Assembly (NCBI RefSeq): GCF_025370775.1
Contig: NZ_JAMXEX010000001.1
Location: forward strand, 682,001 to 746,000
DNA: 64,000 bases
Direction of reading: 5' to 3'
From: Ancylothrix sp. D3o
GTDB lineage: Bacteria > Cyanobacteriota > Cyanobacteriia > Cyanobacteriales > Oscillatoriaceae
The position numbers and the translations under genes are program-made. Below the pieces are notes generated by a model, which worked only from the letters and a program-made list of their open reading frames with translations, was not told where the DNA came from and did not search any database. The first letter of the stretch is position 1. Every line of letters starts with the position of its first letter. Shown in pieces: positions 20,519 through 27,287 of the stretch.

Positions 20519-20527
20519 TTTGTTTTT

Positions 20528-20557
20528 GGCCGGCTTCTGGCCGGTCACTTTTTTTTG
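20528..20557 (+). terminator. Intrinsic terminator of dnaN
   Basis: GGCCGGC (20528-20534) pairs with GCCGGTC (20540-20546), with one G-T pair and loop TTCTG. ACTTTTTTTT follows. It should isolate dnaN from the next gene pair. Confidence 0.75.
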
Positions 20558-20600
20558 TTGAAAAATGTACAATTTTTGTTAAGCAGGGAGGGTATGAAAA

Positions 20601-23600
20601 ATGGTGAATGATATTAGGTTTGGTCGTGATGATTTGCCTTATGTTGATTATTCGGATTTGCTTGAGAAGATTTTACAGGTTTTGCGAAATGCGCCGGCAA
20701 ATTTGTTTAAGTTGTCTGAGGATGGCAATCGTTTGATTGTGGATTTTGATGAGGTTGCGGCTCAGGTGGCGATGTTGAAGCCGGCTAATCCTTTGGGGGC
20801 TTCTGCTAATAGTGTGAAAGCTGCAACAGTGAATTTTAGTCCGGGTTTTGAAGAAAGTTTTCCTAAAAAAATAGGTTTAATTAAAAGACGGTTACAAGAG
20901 TTATTGCAGGGGTTTTTAAATAGTGGGGGTACGGAAATTACAATTGAGAATTTTGTGGGGAGTTTGTTGACGGATTTACAGCAATTTAAGAGTAATAATG
21001 CGAATTTGGATTTAAGTTATTCTTTTGGCAACTATCCAGGTTTACAAAAACGACGCTTGACTTTAGAAAAAGAGGCAGCGAATCAGCAGTTATTGAAGTT
21101 TCATAAGTTAACGGTGACTGTGAGAAATTCTCAGGAATTTAATGGACAATTGCGGGAGGGTATTCAAAGGTATATTCAGGCAAAGTTTGCAGGGGAAGAT
21201 GAGGGGGATTTGGAAGAGTTAGAGGATATTTTAGCGGACTTAGAAAGCCATTCAGATTTTAAAAAGCTTAAGGGTATTGTTGACAGAGATACGCTGGGTA
21301 AATTGAAGCGTCAGGGGATGATTTTTTATTTAAAGTTTTTGCGGAATAATGCCTACATCGGCGGGAGTAACCCAAATCCGCAAGGTATTCTATGGTTAGA
21401 TGTTTTAATTTCTCGTTTGCAGCGAATTGAAAGTTATATTAATGATGTGAATCGCGGGGATGGTCATTATTTGGTGAATTATGCCGGTGTGCAGTTAAAT
21501 TATCGAGATTTCTTTGCGCGTGCGGAGGCGTTTGATATGTTGCCGGTGATACCTAAAATAGATGGGTATTTGGGAGAAACAAAGAATGAAAGTAACGGAG
21601 AGTTGAACTTTATTTTAGGCTTAAAGTTAAAGTTCGATGGAGAAGTGCAAGCGCATGGCAATGATAAGGGGAAAAAGGTTTTTGATTATTATACTACTTT
21701 GCTTGATCCCAATAGTAAAGAGCATCAAAGAGAAATTTCTGACCCCCAACGGCGAGAGATTTTTGCTAGAAAAGTGTTGCGGATTGTGTTTTTGTATTAT
21801 TTTGTGTTTGCGGGGAATAAACCAGCAACAGAGGGTTATCCTGAGTCAGATTTAAATTATGATCCGGTGGTTCGTTTTGAAACAGCGGTATTGCCGGTTT
21901 TACAAGGAGGAGATGATGAGGCAAAAAGAACTCTATTCGGCAATATTTTAAGAGGGTTTGAACAGTATAAGATAACAGAAAGGATTAAGGAAGTTAAAAC
22001 TTTACTCAAAAAAGTTATTGAGCGAAAAACCACTTTTGCGGCACAGGAAGAAGCGGTACATATTGATGTGAGTCGGAGTATTCTTGAGGATAATATAGAG
22101 CGAATTATAAACCGCAGTACATTTTTTAAAGACGAAGAATTTAGCCAAGCTAGTCCCAAACAAGTTTTAAAGTATTTGACAGTAGGGGATGCAAATTTGG
22201 CAGCAAATTCTTTGCTTAGTTTGCGGGGTAGTTTGCGTATTGATGAGGTGAATTATTATGGAACAGATGACCAGCAAAGTTTTACGATGCAGTATGATGA
22301 GATTGATAAAATAAAAGCCTTGCCGGTGGTTTTTTTGTCACGAGATGAGCTTGCGCGTCAAGTTTATAATGAGCAATTGAACAACCGCAAATTAGTAGCA
22401 TTTCCCTATAAGTTAGAAAGAGATAATTTAGAACCCCCTGATTTTTTTGCGTATAAATTTATATTTTCTTTATTGGTTTATATTTTCTTGAAGCTTTTGT
22501 TGGGTAAAAATCGTTTATTTGTGCCACTTTTGCGGTTACAAGTGAGCAACAAGGATGATAGTTTACCTATTGAGAAATTTATCTTAGATTTCTCGATAGT
22601 TTTGGCGCATTTATTAAATCAAGAATATCGCGCCAATGCTCAGGGAATTGATATCAGAACTTACGGAACAAATACGTTTAGTTTTAAACTTAAAAATGCG
22701 ATGAGTTCGCTGTATTCTGTGTTGCCGAAAAAGTTTATCTTGCCTCCAAAACTACTACCTCAACTGGATAAATTAGGCATTGTGATTGTTTCGAGTCGGG
22801 AATGCGATAAAAGTTGGAGAAGTAATCAAAAAATCTCTAATTTGATGGGAGAGATCCTCGTCGGTGTGAAACAAGAAGAAGGGATACAAATTCGGCAAAT
22901 TAGAACGTTCTCAGGGAATTACGAACATCAGGAAATGTTCCAGCGTCCCCAGGCAATTATTGATCAGATCCATGATTTGTATAAACGAGGAGTTCGACAT
23001 TTTTTATATATTGCAAAGGCTCCCTATTCGAGTACATTACATCTGACGAGAGAGGAAGATGACGATGGCTTATTTTTCATGTCTAAGGAAGTAATTAAGA
23101 ATCTCAAAGGAAGCTATGAAGATATTAAGATTTACCCGATGTTTTTTGACAAATATTATGCTGTCAACTTGCAAAACCTAAAAGCACAATCTTTGTATAT
23201 TCAGGATACAAGCGAATTAACTGCATTGCTAGATGATCGCAATCAGCAGTGTGTCGTGTTTTTCAATTTATTTAATGGCATTTCTGTAGGGAATGATCGC
23301 AATTATAATGGGGTTATTTCCTATGCAACGCTGTTAAATTTTTATGGAGAAATTATGCCAACAGCGAATATTTATGAGGGTTTGATTTCGGATACACCAC
23401 TTAAGGAAGACATTTTGCAGTATTTAAGTTTGTTTCATTTTTCCCGGTATGAAGCAACAGCCAGAAGAGATCAACCGATTAATTTTAAACTAGATCCTTA
23501 TCAAAATTTAATAGGGGATTTTTCTGTTGGTGCGTTTTCGTCTTATGAGCACATGACAGGCAAAGGAACATTTAACTCTTTGGCATTTTTAACCAGAGTA

Positions 23601-23624
23601 AAAAGTTGTTTGGATATTCAATAA
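20601..23624 (+). CDS. Large protein of unknown function (1007 residues), first gene of a two-gene unit
   Basis: I do not recognise a family. The ATG at 20601 follows a strong GGGAGGG Shine-Dalgarno sequence. A 5-codon upstream frame (ATG 20594) overlaps the start. Residues 1-250 are helical and charged, including an acidic segment (GEDEGDLEELEDILADLE). A hydrophobic stretch at about 614-635 (KFIFSLLVYIFLKLLLG) could be membrane-associated or buried. The C-terminal 280 residues alternate predicted strands and helices: GIVIVSSRECD at 726-736, RGVRHFLYIAKAPYSSTLHL at 796-815, then CVVFFNLFNGISVG. This order is loosely reminiscent of an RNase H/PIWI-like lobe, but no catalytic tetrad is evident. 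The gene sits 15 bp before a helicase-like ATPase, so the two very likely work together. Base and motif use match the host. Confidence 0.8.
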   Translation: MVNDIRFGRDDLPYVDYSDLLEKILQVLRNAPANLFKLSEDGNRLIVDFDEVAAQVAMLKPANPLGASANSVKAATVNFSPGFEESFPKKIGLIKRRLQELLQGFLNSGGTEITIENFVGSLLTDLQQFKSNNANLDLSYSFGNYPGLQKRRLTLEKEAANQQLLKFHKLTVTVRNSQEFNGQLREGIQRYIQAKFAGEDEGDLEELEDILADLESHSDFKKLKGIVDRDTLGKLKRQGMIFYLKFLRNNAYIGGSNPNPQGILWLDVLISRLQRIESYINDVNRGDGHYLVNYAGVQLNYRDFFARAEAFDMLPVIPKIDGYLGETKNESNGELNFILGLKLKFDGEVQAHGNDKGKKVFDYYTTLLDPNSKEHQREISDPQRREIFARKVLRIVFLYYFVFAGNKPATEGYPESDLNYDPVVRFETAVLPVLQGGDDEAKRTLFGNILRGFEQYKITERIKEVKTLLKKVIERKTTFAAQEEAVHIDVSRSILEDNIERIINRSTFFKDEEFSQASPKQVLKYLTVGDANLAANSLLSLRGSLRIDEVNYYGTDDQQSFTMQYDEIDKIKALPVVFLSRDELARQVYNEQLNNRKLVAFPYKLERDNLEPPDFFAYKFIFSLLVYIFLKLLLGKNRLFVPLLRLQVSNKDDSLPIEKFILDFSIVLAHLLNQEYRANAQGIDIRTYGTNTFSFKLKNAMSSLYSVLPKKFILPPKLLPQLDKLGIVIVSSRECDKSWRSNQKISNLMGEILVGVKQEEGIQIRQIRTFSGNYEHQEMFQRPQAIIDQIHDLYKRGVRHFLYIAKAPYSSTLHLTREEDDDGLFFMSKEVIKNLKGSYEDIKIYPMFFDKYYAVNLQNLKAQSLYIQDTSELTALLDDRNQQCVVFFNLFNGISVGNDRNYNGVISYATLLNFYGEIMPTANIYEGLISDTPLKEDILQYLSLFHFSRYEATARRDQPINFKLDPYQNLIGDFSVGAFSSYEHMTGKGTFNSLAFLTRVKSCLDIQ

Positions 23625-23639
23625 TAAAAGGAGGGAAAT

Positions 23640-26600
23640 ATGGCTGGAAAAATTGCTGAAGAATTAGGCCGGCTTTTTGAAGTTGGGTTTAATATTGGCA
23701 TTTTGGCTTGTATCCAGAAAAACAAAATTAAACATAAGTTTGGCAATTTGTATTTAAAAGATTTGCAAGAACTCAAATTGCCTAAAATTTTGCGAGAAAT
23801 TGCTAATAAAACCACAAGCAGCGTACAGCGAGAAATAGCAGAAAAGTGGACATTATTTTTCCTACAAAAAGGCTTTGTGGCGGGGTTAAATTTCTTTCAG
23901 GAATATCTAAAAGCAGCCGGTTGGACAGAAAAACGGCTTCGCTATTTAGAAATATCTTATTATCAGTGTTCTTTTTGGGGAGATAACAGCATTGGTACAG
24001 TTTTAAAAAATGAGCAAGTTTGGCAGGGGCAACTTTTGGGGCAATTTGAGCAACTGGATGCTAAACAAATCGAAACAACAATTGCTAAATATTTCAACGC
24101 AAAAGGAGAATTTTTAAAGGCAGACACTTTAATGCTTTTGCAATATAAACAAAAAGAAGTTAGGGTTTTGTCAGTAGATTTATCGGTGTTTTCCGGTTAT
24201 TCTGAGCAACAAATTGAGGATTTAAGTTTTGTTGATATTTTGCGGAAGCAGTTAAACCGCGATATTAAGTATTTACGTTCTAAAAGCTTCTTTTCCAAGT
24301 TGCGGATAGATACGCAAAATTTAGGGGTGGAATTTTCCGAAGATTTGAAGACTTATTTTAAGCTTTTTAAAGTCAAAGATAAAGAGACATCAAAGTTAAT
24401 TCAAGCCGCTAGTTATGCTTACAGTTTTTATGGCTTTTTGCAAGAAAATAAGCTTTTGCCAGAAAACAGTTCTATACTTTTTAACGTTCTTGGATATAGT
24501 GATCGCGCCATGAGTTCGATGGCGGTGGAAGAAGGCAATTTAGATATCTTAAAAAGCTGTTATGAAATTTATCGATATAAGGACGAAGAAGAAATTAAAG
24601 ATGCACGTTATAAGGTTTTACGGAAAATTAAAAGCAGTGCAGCAAGAAGCTTTAATGATGGCAAAAAATTGGTAGAAGCATTGTTAGCAATTCCCCCGGA
24701 TGCTGTTACATCTATTACTCACACAGAACGCCTAGAAGAATTTGTAAATACTGTTGGAGAAGTGCCGGCAGCTTTGATGAAAGATTTGGGTTTAACGGGT
24801 TCTTTAAACCTCCGACAAGCTCATGCTGAATTAATTATAAAAGCGCTCGAAAGTGAGGCAGCTTATTTATTTTTAACCGGCAACCCCGGAATAGGTAAAA
24901 CCACAGCTATTGTTACTTTTTTGAAAAAGCATTTAGATGAAGGTTGCTTGTTTTTATATGCCAGTCCACGCAAACAAGTAAATCTCGACATTATTGAAAA
25001 ATTTAAAGATCAAGAAACCCCAGAAAAATTATGTGATGATCGGCTCGTTTGTCTCAACACAAATGCTAACTTTATTCGAGATAACAATGAGTTGTGTTCT
25101 TATCCAGTTCAATATGTAGCAAATCAACCGATTTTAGGCGATTATCCAGTAACTTTTATTCCTGCCAATTCTACAGAAGAAAACCAAGGGGGAAGATCAA
25201 ACCGGCTCAACAGAATCGCCGATGATACAATAATAGATACGGGGGCAAAAACTCGCGGCGTTTTGAATAGTATCTGCCAAGGAATTTATACTCTTATTAG
25301 CCAAAAAATTACCAACAATATTGTTGCCACTGTTTCGATTCAATCTTTGAAGAAAACAGACACCGGCAACACTTTAAAACACCTCTGCAAAATATTTCAA
25401 GATGCCTATAACGAGAAAGCAGACACAATTATCACCAGTGAAATGCAAGCAATTTCTCAACGGATCAAGCACATATTTATAATGATTGATGAAATCACCG
25501 GCGATGAGGGAGGTGCAGAATTTTTACATGGTATCGATGAAATTATAGAAAAATACAAACTCACCAATCCTGAATATGGATTTAACACCAAAGTTATTGT
25601 AGCGGATGCGTCAATTGTAGACAAAGATGTGATTACTCAACATCTTGCTGATGCCTCACCGGAACCTGATAAAATTTATTTCAGGAAAGCAAAAAATGCC
25701 GGTTTACCTTTATCACAAGAAGCCTTTGAATTTAAGAAAAAATCAGCCTTAATAATCAATGCCAACTCTTACCCAGCGAGTGCCTTAAATCTCTCTTATA
25801 AAATAATTTTAGAATCCTGTCGTTTTGATTTAGAAGAAAGCAGGAAACAAAAAGACTCTATAACAGAAAACCTGCAAACCGAAATTTTGAAAGACTTACA
25901 AAATCTCTACAATCAACCAGACGTTAACCAAATTATTGTTTACATTCAAGATAAACCAAGATTAGCCCAACTCATTGAAAAAATAGCAGAATATAGAGGA
26001 AAATTCAAGAAAAATGAAGACTACATCGAAATTCATGCTAACCTTTCTGAAATAGAAAAGCAAGAAGTTAACAAATATAAAAATAACGTTAAAATCATTT
26101 TTATGACTGCATCTGGCAGTAGGGGTTTATCTTTTCCAACTGCCAAACATATTTTAGTAGAAATACCCCGTTTTGAAATAGAAAAAAACCTCATGGAAGT
26201 GATACAAGTTATTTATCGAGGGAGGGGAGAAGATAGCTTTGACTCGCAAGAAAAACACTTAACTTTTTATTTAGGAGATCGCGCCGTTTATTATGACAAT
26301 CCCCAAGACTCTTTACAAGAAAGCATATTGAGTTTTTTAAACTTATTAATAATTTTGAAAGCCTCAATAATGACCCGTATTTGTGGGGCCGGTCAAATTG
26401 GACGTGACAAATTTTTAATGATACCTATTGGCGGCAAATCTATCTCAGCAGCAGGGGAAAGCTTTTCTAGTCAAATGGCAAACTTAATCAGAGAATTAAA
26501 ACGAGAATATAACCGCAACAAAAAAGACCGTAAATTGCAGCACGTCTATCTTAGCCTCGAAAAACTCTTAGGAAATTCGGATTTTGTCATCAAAAACCAA

Positions 26601-27287
26601 GCCGAATCAACTCTGATTAGCAGCCTTTCTTACTTAGAAGTAAGAGAGTTTTTTAACCAACAGTTTCCCCAACTAATTACCAAAGGCTTTGATAGCTTAT
26701 TAAACTTAGGAAATCTTGAATTTGGCTATGTCAGTGGGGCGTTGCTTGTTGTGCCAATTGCTGATCAAACCTTAGAAGAAACCTATTTGATGAGCATCCT
26801 TGATATTGCCGATGTAGTCAATTCTCATCTGTGGCGAGATATGAAATTTATCAGCAGCGATTTGAATTACCCAGAAAATTTACGCAGCGCCCTTAAAAAT
26901 GCCATTGAACTCATTAATAAACTCAATTTTGGTGCAGAAAAAAGTCAGCGCTTTGAGCAAAAAACCCAGCGCGTTGACCAATATTACGCTTTTCCTTTAT
27001 TCAGTTTTATTGCCGGTGATGTGTTAAAAGCTTATTTTGATTCCAAACAAGAAGAACCCGAAGATAACCGATTTCGAGATATTTTAGCAGCCTATGTTCG
27101 GAATTTATACCCTGTTGGTAACGTCCTACCCATAGGAACTCAATATCAAGAATTTCCCTTTGTAGTTTTTAGAAGTTACAGTTTAGAAGAAATGCGCTTA
27201 AAAATGTTCACCGGCAAATATCTTTTAAACTCCAACGAATTAAACGTTTTAAATATGATCTTAGCCAAAGATATAATCGAGGAATGA
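23640..27287 (+). CDS. SF2 helicase-like ATPase (1215 residues), second gene of a two-gene unit
   Basis: The ATG at 23640 follows AAGGAGGG. Residues 1-400 are an unrecognised, mostly helical region. The P-loop GNPGIGKTT lies at 414-422, with FLYASPRKQVN after it. Walker B is FIMIDEITGDEGG, Asp617-Glu618. VIVADASI is a motif III-like segment. The second lobe has IFMTASGSRGLSFPTA (about 820-834) and QVIYRGRG at 856-863, matching SF2 motif VI (Q-x-x-x-R-x-R). A 190-residue insert separates Walker A and B, and about 350 residues follow motif VI. Nucleic-acid translocation is expected; the substrate is unknown. It lies 15 bp after the 1007-residue gene and 20 bp before the adaptor gene. Strand composition switches from G-rich to C-rich inside this gene. 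Confidence 0.85.
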   Translation: MAGKIAEELGRLFEVGFNIGILACIQKNKIKHKFGNLYLKDLQELKLPKILREIANKTTSSVQREIAEKWTLFFLQKGFVAGLNFFQEYLKAAGWTEKRLRYLEISYYQCSFWGDNSIGTVLKNEQVWQGQLLGQFEQLDAKQIETTIAKYFNAKGEFLKADTLMLLQYKQKEVRVLSVDLSVFSGYSEQQIEDLSFVDILRKQLNRDIKYLRSKSFFSKLRIDTQNLGVEFSEDLKTYFKLFKVKDKETSKLIQAASYAYSFYGFLQENKLLPENSSILFNVLGYSDRAMSSMAVEEGNLDILKSCYEIYRYKDEEEIKDARYKVLRKIKSSAARSFNDGKKLVEALLAIPPDAVTSITHTERLEEFVNTVGEVPAALMKDLGLTGSLNLRQAHAELIIKALESEAAYLFLTGNPGIGKTTAIVTFLKKHLDEGCLFLYASPRKQVNLDIIEKFKDQETPEKLCDDRLVCLNTNANFIRDNNELCSYPVQYVANQPILGDYPVTFIPANSTEENQGGRSNRLNRIADDTIIDTGAKTRGVLNSICQGIYTLISQKITNNIVATVSIQSLKKTDTGNTLKHLCKIFQDAYNEKADTIITSEMQAISQRIKHIFIMIDEITGDEGGAEFLHGIDEIIEKYKLTNPEYGFNTKVIVADASIVDKDVITQHLADASPEPDKIYFRKAKNAGLPLSQEAFEFKKKSALIINANSYPASALNLSYKIILESCRFDLEESRKQKDSITENLQTEILKDLQNLYNQPDVNQIIVYIQDKPRLAQLIEKIAEYRGKFKKNEDYIEIHANLSEIEKQEVNKYKNNVKIIFMTASGSRGLSFPTAKHILVEIPRFEIEKNLMEVIQVIYRGRGEDSFDSQEKHLTFYLGDRAVYYDNPQDSLQESILSFLNLLIILKASIMTRICGAGQIGRDKFLMIPIGGKSISAAGESFSSQMANLIRELKREYNRNKKDRKLQHVYLSLEKLLGNSDFVIKNQAESTLISSLSYLEVREFFNQQFPQLITKGFDSLLNLGNLEFGYVSGALLVVPIADQTLEETYLMSILDIADVVNSHLWRDMKFISSDLNYPENLRSALKNAIELINKLNFGAEKSQRFEQKTQRVDQYYAFPLFSFIAGDVLKAYFDSKQEEPEDNRFRDILAAYVRNLYPVGNVLPIGTQYQEFPFVVFRSYSLEEMRLKMFTGKYLLNSNELNVLNMILAKDIIEE

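Follow-up and report, generated by a model that had tools for sequence, protein, structure and literature searches.

A two-gene cassette of cyanobacteria couples a protein of predicted Argonaute fold to a superfamily 2 helicase and may act in defence against invading DNA

What do two very large adjoining genes do in a cyanobacterium, when the first of them resembles no known sequence family? The question is raised by a stretch of 64,000 nucleotides from contig NZ_JAMXEX010000001.1 of Ancylothrix sp. D3o (the window, to whose positions all coordinates refer; residue numbers are those of its own two proteins). Gene A (20601-23624, forward strand) encodes 1007 residues and gene B (23640-27287, forward strand) 1215; the two open reading frames lie head to tail on the same strand with a spacer of 15 bp (23625-23639), in agreement with the positions and lengths that an earlier, sequence-only reading of this DNA had given. 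That reading took the pair for a defence-type association of a protein of no recognised family with a helicase, a proposal that our analysis supports, A being predicted to adopt an Argonaute fold.

The evidence for A comes from structure prediction. An AlphaFold2 model built with 55 aligned A proteins, drawn from the window and from named loci, reached a predicted local distance difference test score (pLDDT) of 85.6 and a predicted template modelling score (pTM) of 0.83. A Foldseek search of this model against the PDB returned 42 matches at E<=1e-3, all of them Argonaute/PIWI entries: the titles of 41 name an Argonaute or an SPARTA or SPARDA complex, and the remaining entry, 4kpy, whose title names no protein, is TtAgo. 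The matches include the Argonautes of Thermus, Rhodobacter and Marinitoga, human Ago1 and Ago2, plant Ago10, and chains of the SPARDA and SPARTA complexes. Next after the Argonautes come a foamy-virus (retroviral) reverse transcriptase (E 0.02) and endonuclease V (E 0.08), both of which have RNase H-type folds that are kin to PIWI. VIA-align typically gives a best Z of 7-8 when a model has no clear counterpart, and of 14 when such a model is mostly helical. For A the best Z was 11.0, to TtAgo (root-mean-square deviation 4.4 over 321 residues); 48 of the best 50 entries carry the titles of Argonaute/PIWI proteins or complexes and two have generic titles, and the matched ranges of the model mostly span about residue 150 to about residue 1000, i.e., they run to the C-terminus. 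As we read the predicted secondary structure and the alignment, the order of strands and helices in residues 620-1005 is compatible with a MID followed by a PIWI domain (22458-23615, forward strand, these limits also being our reading). By prediction, A has an Argonaute/PIWI fold.

Conservation was judged from 35 A proteins, among them a very distant branch of seven rows at 15-17% identity. Across this set G682 and H946 are kept in all 35 and Q681, R645, K724 and D736 in 34 each, and K710 is kept in 53 of 55 closer members; the Q681-G682 pair belongs to the putative MID-PIWI region. Two rows of this alignment (A1), L051 and L052, had no match in the single-sequence search with A and were included by their position beside B; they share 53-65% identity with the distant, matched A proteins L046, L047 and L048, or with each other. 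The PIWI strands expected to bear the catalytic aspartates, chosen by eye from the strand order, read (V)SSRxxD for the first and YIAKAPY or LLSHAYG for the fourth, and because the usual DEDX aspartates are by this reading absent, A is probably not a slicer.

At the level of sequence A stands apart, as had been claimed. Searches of Pfam, NCBIfam and PADLOC assign it no family at E<=1, and its best E values against PDB sequences, 0.79 and 0.54, are at chance level and give no credible match. When the 35 diverse members were scanned singly with Pfam at E<=0.1, scattered weak matches appeared, none common to more than three members among the 25 of 27 families listed, and eight further scans at E<=1 (seven distant members and the Ktedonobacter member) gave nothing above the cut-off. 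No Pfam Piwi (PF02171) or other PIWI model is among the families listed for those 35 or eight proteins. Within 195 genomes of the order Cyanobacteriales, our genome sample (counts at E<=0.001, fragments included), none of the Piwi matches falls at an A locus, and neither does any match to PF13032 (RNaseH_pPIWI_RE), which occurs in 47 of these genomes (44 above the cut-off).

Gene B is a helicase of superfamily 2 (SF2), with two RecA-like domains and motifs I, II and VI. Pfam Helicase_C matches the window's B at 6.6e-7 and all 31 diverse B members at E<=0.01, with weak P-loop matches besides. An AlphaFold2 model of residues 1-1200 (pLDDT 80.8, pTM 0.75) resembles SF2 helicases over about residues 338-930 (24651-26429, forward strand), where VIA-align gives Z 13.8-15.3 in its best 50 matches; these include the spliceosome chain 8r09_B, which we take to be Brr2 (15.3), Prp2 (15.0), RIG-I (14.7) and WRN (14.6). 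The motifs that had been picked out from the letters are all found in the translation, on the forward strand: motif I or P-loop GNPGIGKTT (residues 414-422; 24879-24905), motif II DE (617-618; 25488-25493) and motif VI QVIYRGRG (856-863; 26205-26228). K420, D617, E618, R828, R860 and R862 are invariant in 31 B proteins, and Q856 is invariant in one B alignment (A2). PADLOC matches of B to mad8 (0.0036) and Csf4/DinG (0.011 and 0.068) fall within the helicase motifs and were rejected as too weak. At two loci (L055:6375-10259 and L068:10037-13999) B is about 80-105 residues longer than in the window, and its matched parts are split near residue 690 or 780-790 by inserted stretches.

The N-terminal part of B (about residues 100-225; 23937-24314, forward strand) is a candidate nuclease. 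In the alignment of 31 B proteins D162 is invariant and charge is kept at positions 180 (D/E) and 215 (K/R), and the resulting pattern, (A)D-hydrophobic strand-turn-hydrophobic strand-(D/E)xS, resembles a PD-(D/E)xK motif whose lysine has moved, a serine replacing the motif's lysine; we regard this as a lead. After residue 930 no conserved D...(D/E)xK pattern was seen in the sequences: at a threshold of 90% among the 31 diverse B proteins the conserved acids are E1027, E1047 and E1200 only, and the larger number kept in 47 close B proteins likewise forms no visible D...(D/E)xK.

A matches in 83 and B in 87 of the 195 genomes, so the observation is not a matter of chance. Both occur in 81 genomes, A only in two, B only in six and neither in 106. 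Separation of the genes in most genomes, which the sequence-only reading had named as speaking against a unit, was not seen, since of the 89 genomes in which either gene matches, 81 contain both. Both A-only matches are short or broken, and among the six B-only genomes G021 has a distant A (L051) adjoining, the match in G141 starts near a contig end, and G042, G045, G086 and G122 hold only fragments or broken copies. Of the 127 loci fetched, in which some genomes are represented twice, 126 have a match; these gave 118 neighbouring A/B matches, all on the same strand, with A first in 114 and B first in four, the latter arising from tandems and from locus L062. Of the A-to-B pairs that are adjacent and full-length (89, of which 85 are distinct), 55 overlap or lie at most 30 bp apart. 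The distance matrices of A and B are strongly correlated (Mantel r 0.986, best of 999 permutations 0.285, shared descent still being included in this figure), as expected of genes travelling together.

Several loci depart from the simple layout. In the tandems L071:511-10683 (A-B-A-B), L073:6083-15794 and L123:6966-16656 (both A-B-A) a second A follows directly after B; it is 44-45% identical to the window's A, to which the first A shows 53% identity in L071 and L073, and the two A proteins of such tandems might pair with each other. In L062:1731-10515 (G002) B is the upstream gene of the two, which share a strand but are separated by three opposite-strand open reading frames, and a second A is found on another contig of that genome. 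An open frame of about 2210 residues is listed for A in two genomes; in L037 a TAG separates A and B, and we do not claim a fusion.

In a sample of the whole phylum, B is found at E<=1e-20 in 42 of 292 genomes, 41 of which belong to the same order. Relatives outside the cyanobacteria are a Ktedonobacter robiniae protein at 45% and distant pairs on plasmids of Cupriavidus, Acetobacter and two Acinetobacter. A (83) is found in more of the same 195 genomes than classical Piwi (52) or pPIWI-RE (47). Presence of the pair is not associated with that of pPIWI-RE (20 of 81 genomes with the pair, 27 of 114 without; Fisher p 0.87) and is negatively associated with that of Piwi (13 of 81 and 39 of 114; p 0.005), both values being uncorrected for kinship. 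The window's own genome has two separate pPIWI-RE matches (G000:C40:5942-6796 and G000:C29:27210-27983) and no classical Piwi match.

How such a pair comes and goes can be followed at the position that it occupies in the window, between the gene that we take to be dnaN and an HlyD/MacA-like gene labelled macA here. G020, which belongs to the same family as the window's genome, carries the pair between the same two genes. Two congeners of G020, G087 and G069, have no A or B match anywhere, and their dnaN and macA matches lie 267 bp apart. On the left, the G020 sequence can be aligned with the empty sites as far as the stop codon of dnaN (98.5% over 66 bp in G069), and on the right the alignment begins again with the start of macA (90.9% over 66 bp). 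A and B make up an optional cassette of two genes, gained or lost together without a third gene, and it is because the two come and go in this way that we regard A and B as the whole system. Elsewhere the neighbours among the 127 loci are presumably purQ (23) and purS (19), or pheT and a small YciI-like gene (22 each). The recurrence of the same core-gene neighbours in two groups of loci argues for a vertical stay within those groups; the earlier suggestion that the pair is long resident holds to that extent, and is weakened by its optional nature and its absence between dnaN and macA in two relatives. Decay is frequent: in at least 10 of the 83 genomes with A (G096, G103, G111, G127, G133, G142, G168, G177, G179 and G183) this gene is only fragmentary or contains stops. 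Decay is heavy in the A-B locus L066:7025-11966 (G142), where a single matched stretch of A contains 25 stops and one of B contains 55.

Eleven plasmid records match B, seven of them cyanobacterial, and the four cyanobacterial plasmids examined (from Trichormus, Tolypothrix, Nostoc and Aulosira) are all typed as conjugative, MPF_T. The genes within about 12 kb of the pair, which serve as examples and not as enrichment statistics, are often of a kind found in defence. On plasmid C of Trichormus variabilis (L155:15680-26458) A-B is followed at once by two sacsin-domain proteins (831 and 1853 residues) that are weakly TmtA-like, then by a DrmD helicase and a DNA cytosine methyltransferase. The Nostoc plasmid has a cGAS-like nucleotidyltransferase with an E2 protein, a kinase and a PLD protein near the pair, and the Tolypothrix plasmid CHAT proteins and a RelE-type toxin; most genes in the Aulosira stretch encode hypothetical proteins or transposases, and the Cupriavidus record is unannotated at the pair's location. 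Of the Acinetobacter plasmids with a distant pair, one is typed as non-mobilizable and one as mobilizable; one carries HipA, Fic, HigB and a DUF4011 helicase with a restriction endonuclease (REase) domain, the other HNH, methyltransferase and WYL genes. On the plasmid of Acinetobacter sp. PK01 (L153:18079-23277) the distant A-B is immediately followed by a DUF4011 helicase of 1732 residues, which has an REase_MTES_1575 domain at its C-terminus.

The remaining features of the locus in the window fit the description that had been given of it. A terminator-like hairpin with a T8 tail (20527-20557, forward strand; two overlapping matches against a mean of 0.3 in shuffles) separates dnaN from A, and purine-rich ribosome-binding-like sites can be read before both genes, AGGGAGGG before A (20585-20592, forward strand) and AGGAGGG before B (23629-23635, forward strand). 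From the spacing we infer that A and B would be transcribed as one unit. Downstream of B lies an efflux operon, in which Pfam identifies HlyD/MacA-like, MacB-like and outer-membrane factor genes; a promoter-like match (10/12) at 27248-27277, inside the end of B and upstream of the macA-like gene, is the one found where 0.7 were expected by chance.

What, then, is the pair for? We consider it reasonably likely that the two genes make up a defence module complete in itself, in which a guide-binding and probably non-cutting Argonaute acts with a helicase against invading DNA. Computational support comes from the Argonaute fold of A, the SF2 core of B, their co-occurrence, the cassette behaviour and the carriage on plasmids, whereas we infer guide binding by A, contact between A and B, the loss of cutting, any nuclease in B and the nature of the target. 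In such a mechanism the MID-PIWI channel of A would be occupied by a short nucleic-acid guide, with which A would find matching invading DNA, on plasmids and perhaps in phage. It would then recruit or load B at the bound target, and B would unwind or track along the DNA, the damage being done either by its nuclease-like N-terminal part or by host nucleases. By analogy, an antiplasmid role is at least as likely as one against phage.

Several observations weigh against this account. The comparison of A with cyanobacterial pPIWI-RE and prokaryotic Argonaute (pAgo) profiles by hhalign gave probabilities below 1%, the same as for unrelated pairs. This test has little power, because the positive control, pPIWI-RE against pAgo, itself reached only 2.4%, or 12% with profiles cut to the C-terminal half; with such half profiles A again stayed below 1% against the true profiles, and reversed controls reached up to 1.8% and 2.0%. 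Profile comparison gives the Argonaute link no sequence support, and the case for it is predicted structure. The MID guide-end motif of A keeps the glutamine of the guide-binding pattern Y-x3-K...Q...K, but no conserved Y-x3-K. D736, kept in 34 of 35 proteins, ends the first PIWI strand and leaves cutting activity possible. The candidate nuclease of B is a motif reading from conserved columns only, and the two largest groups of loci adjoin core genes and not defence islands. Finally, Med13 is described as a case in which an Argonaute fold does not entail nucleic-acid binding (PMC12477606).

Should the defence reading be true, a large cyanobacterial group, including genera used in research and biotechnology, would carry an unrecognised Argonaute system, and A-B may decide which plasmids these organisms keep. 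The idea behind DdmDE and ApsAB, of a non-cutting Argonaute that steers a helicase, would be extended to a new family, and the case would illustrate that fold can reveal Argonautes that sequence misses. It will be interesting to see whether A carries guides and whether the pair expels plasmids.

The precedent of Med13 also suggests another explanation, in which A is a guide-free structural platform with an Argonaute fold and B a helicase that blocks incoming DNA. The loss of nucleic-acid binding reported for Med13 (PMC12477606) and the mostly missing MID guide-end motif of A speak for it, but Q681, G682, R645, K724, D736 and H946 are each retained by 34 or all 35 of the aligned A proteins, which span two very distant branches; this suggests a kept site, and we judge the explanation improbable. 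We attach similarly little probability to the view that the cell uses the pair in its own DNA or RNA metabolism, i.e., repair, replication or transcription. Its placement beside dnaN, purQ or pheT and the constant core-gene neighbours in the two large locus groups would suit such a role, as would the finding of no relative of A or B among IMG/VR contigs (two peptide patterns each) and of no match in the phage records searched, a search that covered B only. However, both genes are present in only 81 of 195 genomes, they are optional between close relatives, copies reside on conjugative plasmids, and decay is frequent.

A further alternative is that the pair is a cyanobacterial branch of the ApsAB/DdmDE family, so diverged that the libraries used miss the link, and belongs to a known system instead of forming a new class; we think this rather unlikely. 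None of the searches that we ran assigns both proteins to a described system, an assignment that the sequence-only reading had named as counting against its own proposal; A-B is set apart from ApsAB and DdmDE by published descriptions and motifs, not by direct sequence comparison, and from the absence of the names DdmE and DdmD among the best 50 Foldseek or VIA-align entries we draw no conclusion. ApsAB is reported to consist of an Argonaute-like protein and a helicase-nuclease that remove plasmids in E. coli, and to require its helicase motifs and a MID lysine fully, a nuclease residue only partly (PMC11096173); these mutant requirements fit the helicase-led mechanism proposed for A-B. Its authors report ApsAB-like systems in some cyanobacteria, which could overlap with the A-B family. 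Both systems follow the same logic, two genes for an Argonaute-like protein and an SF2 helicase, both are patchily spread, and the QG conserved in the MID motif of ApsB has its counterpart in Q681 (34/35) and G682 (35/35) of A. In the same description, however, the nuclease site of ApsA is a C-terminal PD-(D/E)xK, as it is C-terminal in DdmD, whereas the C-terminus of B has no well-conserved pattern of this kind. The helicase motifs also differ, those of ApsA (one protein) reading GFGKS, DELH, SAT and QAVGRVER and those of B GNPGIGKTT, DEIT, VADAS (our own assignment) and QVIYRGRG. ApsB has the Y-x3-K that A does not keep, and it is said there to lack the PIWI RNase H fold, whereas A matches Argonautes to its C-terminus (PMC11096173). 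Among the titles and abstract openings listed in literature searches, none describes the A-B pair, though the supplementary data of that paper might do so.

Among the systems described so far, A-B most likely works like DdmDE or ApsAB. In Vibrio cholerae DdmE is an inactive long Argonaute that binds DNA guides and recruits DdmD, and the two remove plasmids (PMC12409362). A-B shares with DdmDE the two-gene operon and the coupling of a long Argonaute, catalytically inactive in the case of DdmE, to an SF2 helicase; the nuclease of DdmD is C-terminal, whereas B has a candidate N-terminal one and none that we could see at its C-terminus. The pPIWI-RE system likewise encodes a divergent PIWI protein beside an SF2 helicase (PMC3702460), and in our sample it occurs in many cyanobacteria. 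It couples the PIWI protein with a DinG helicase and an REase in a three-gene arrangement of the order REase, DinG, PIWI (some pPIWI-RE proteins stand alone), whereas A-B has two genes, the Argonaute-like one first in 114 of 118 cases, and no REase gene, and the pPIWI-RE model has no match at A loci. From classical prokaryotic Argonautes (Pfam Piwi), whose overall fold it shares by prediction, A differs in having no sequence match to them, in lacking, by eye, aspartates at the usual strand positions, and in having a helicase partner. That the pair represents a further class of helicase-coupled Argonautes, a family invisible to the sequence libraries searched, with the nuclease-like part of B at its N-terminus and a guide-directed immunity against plasmids or phage, has in our estimation an even chance of being right.

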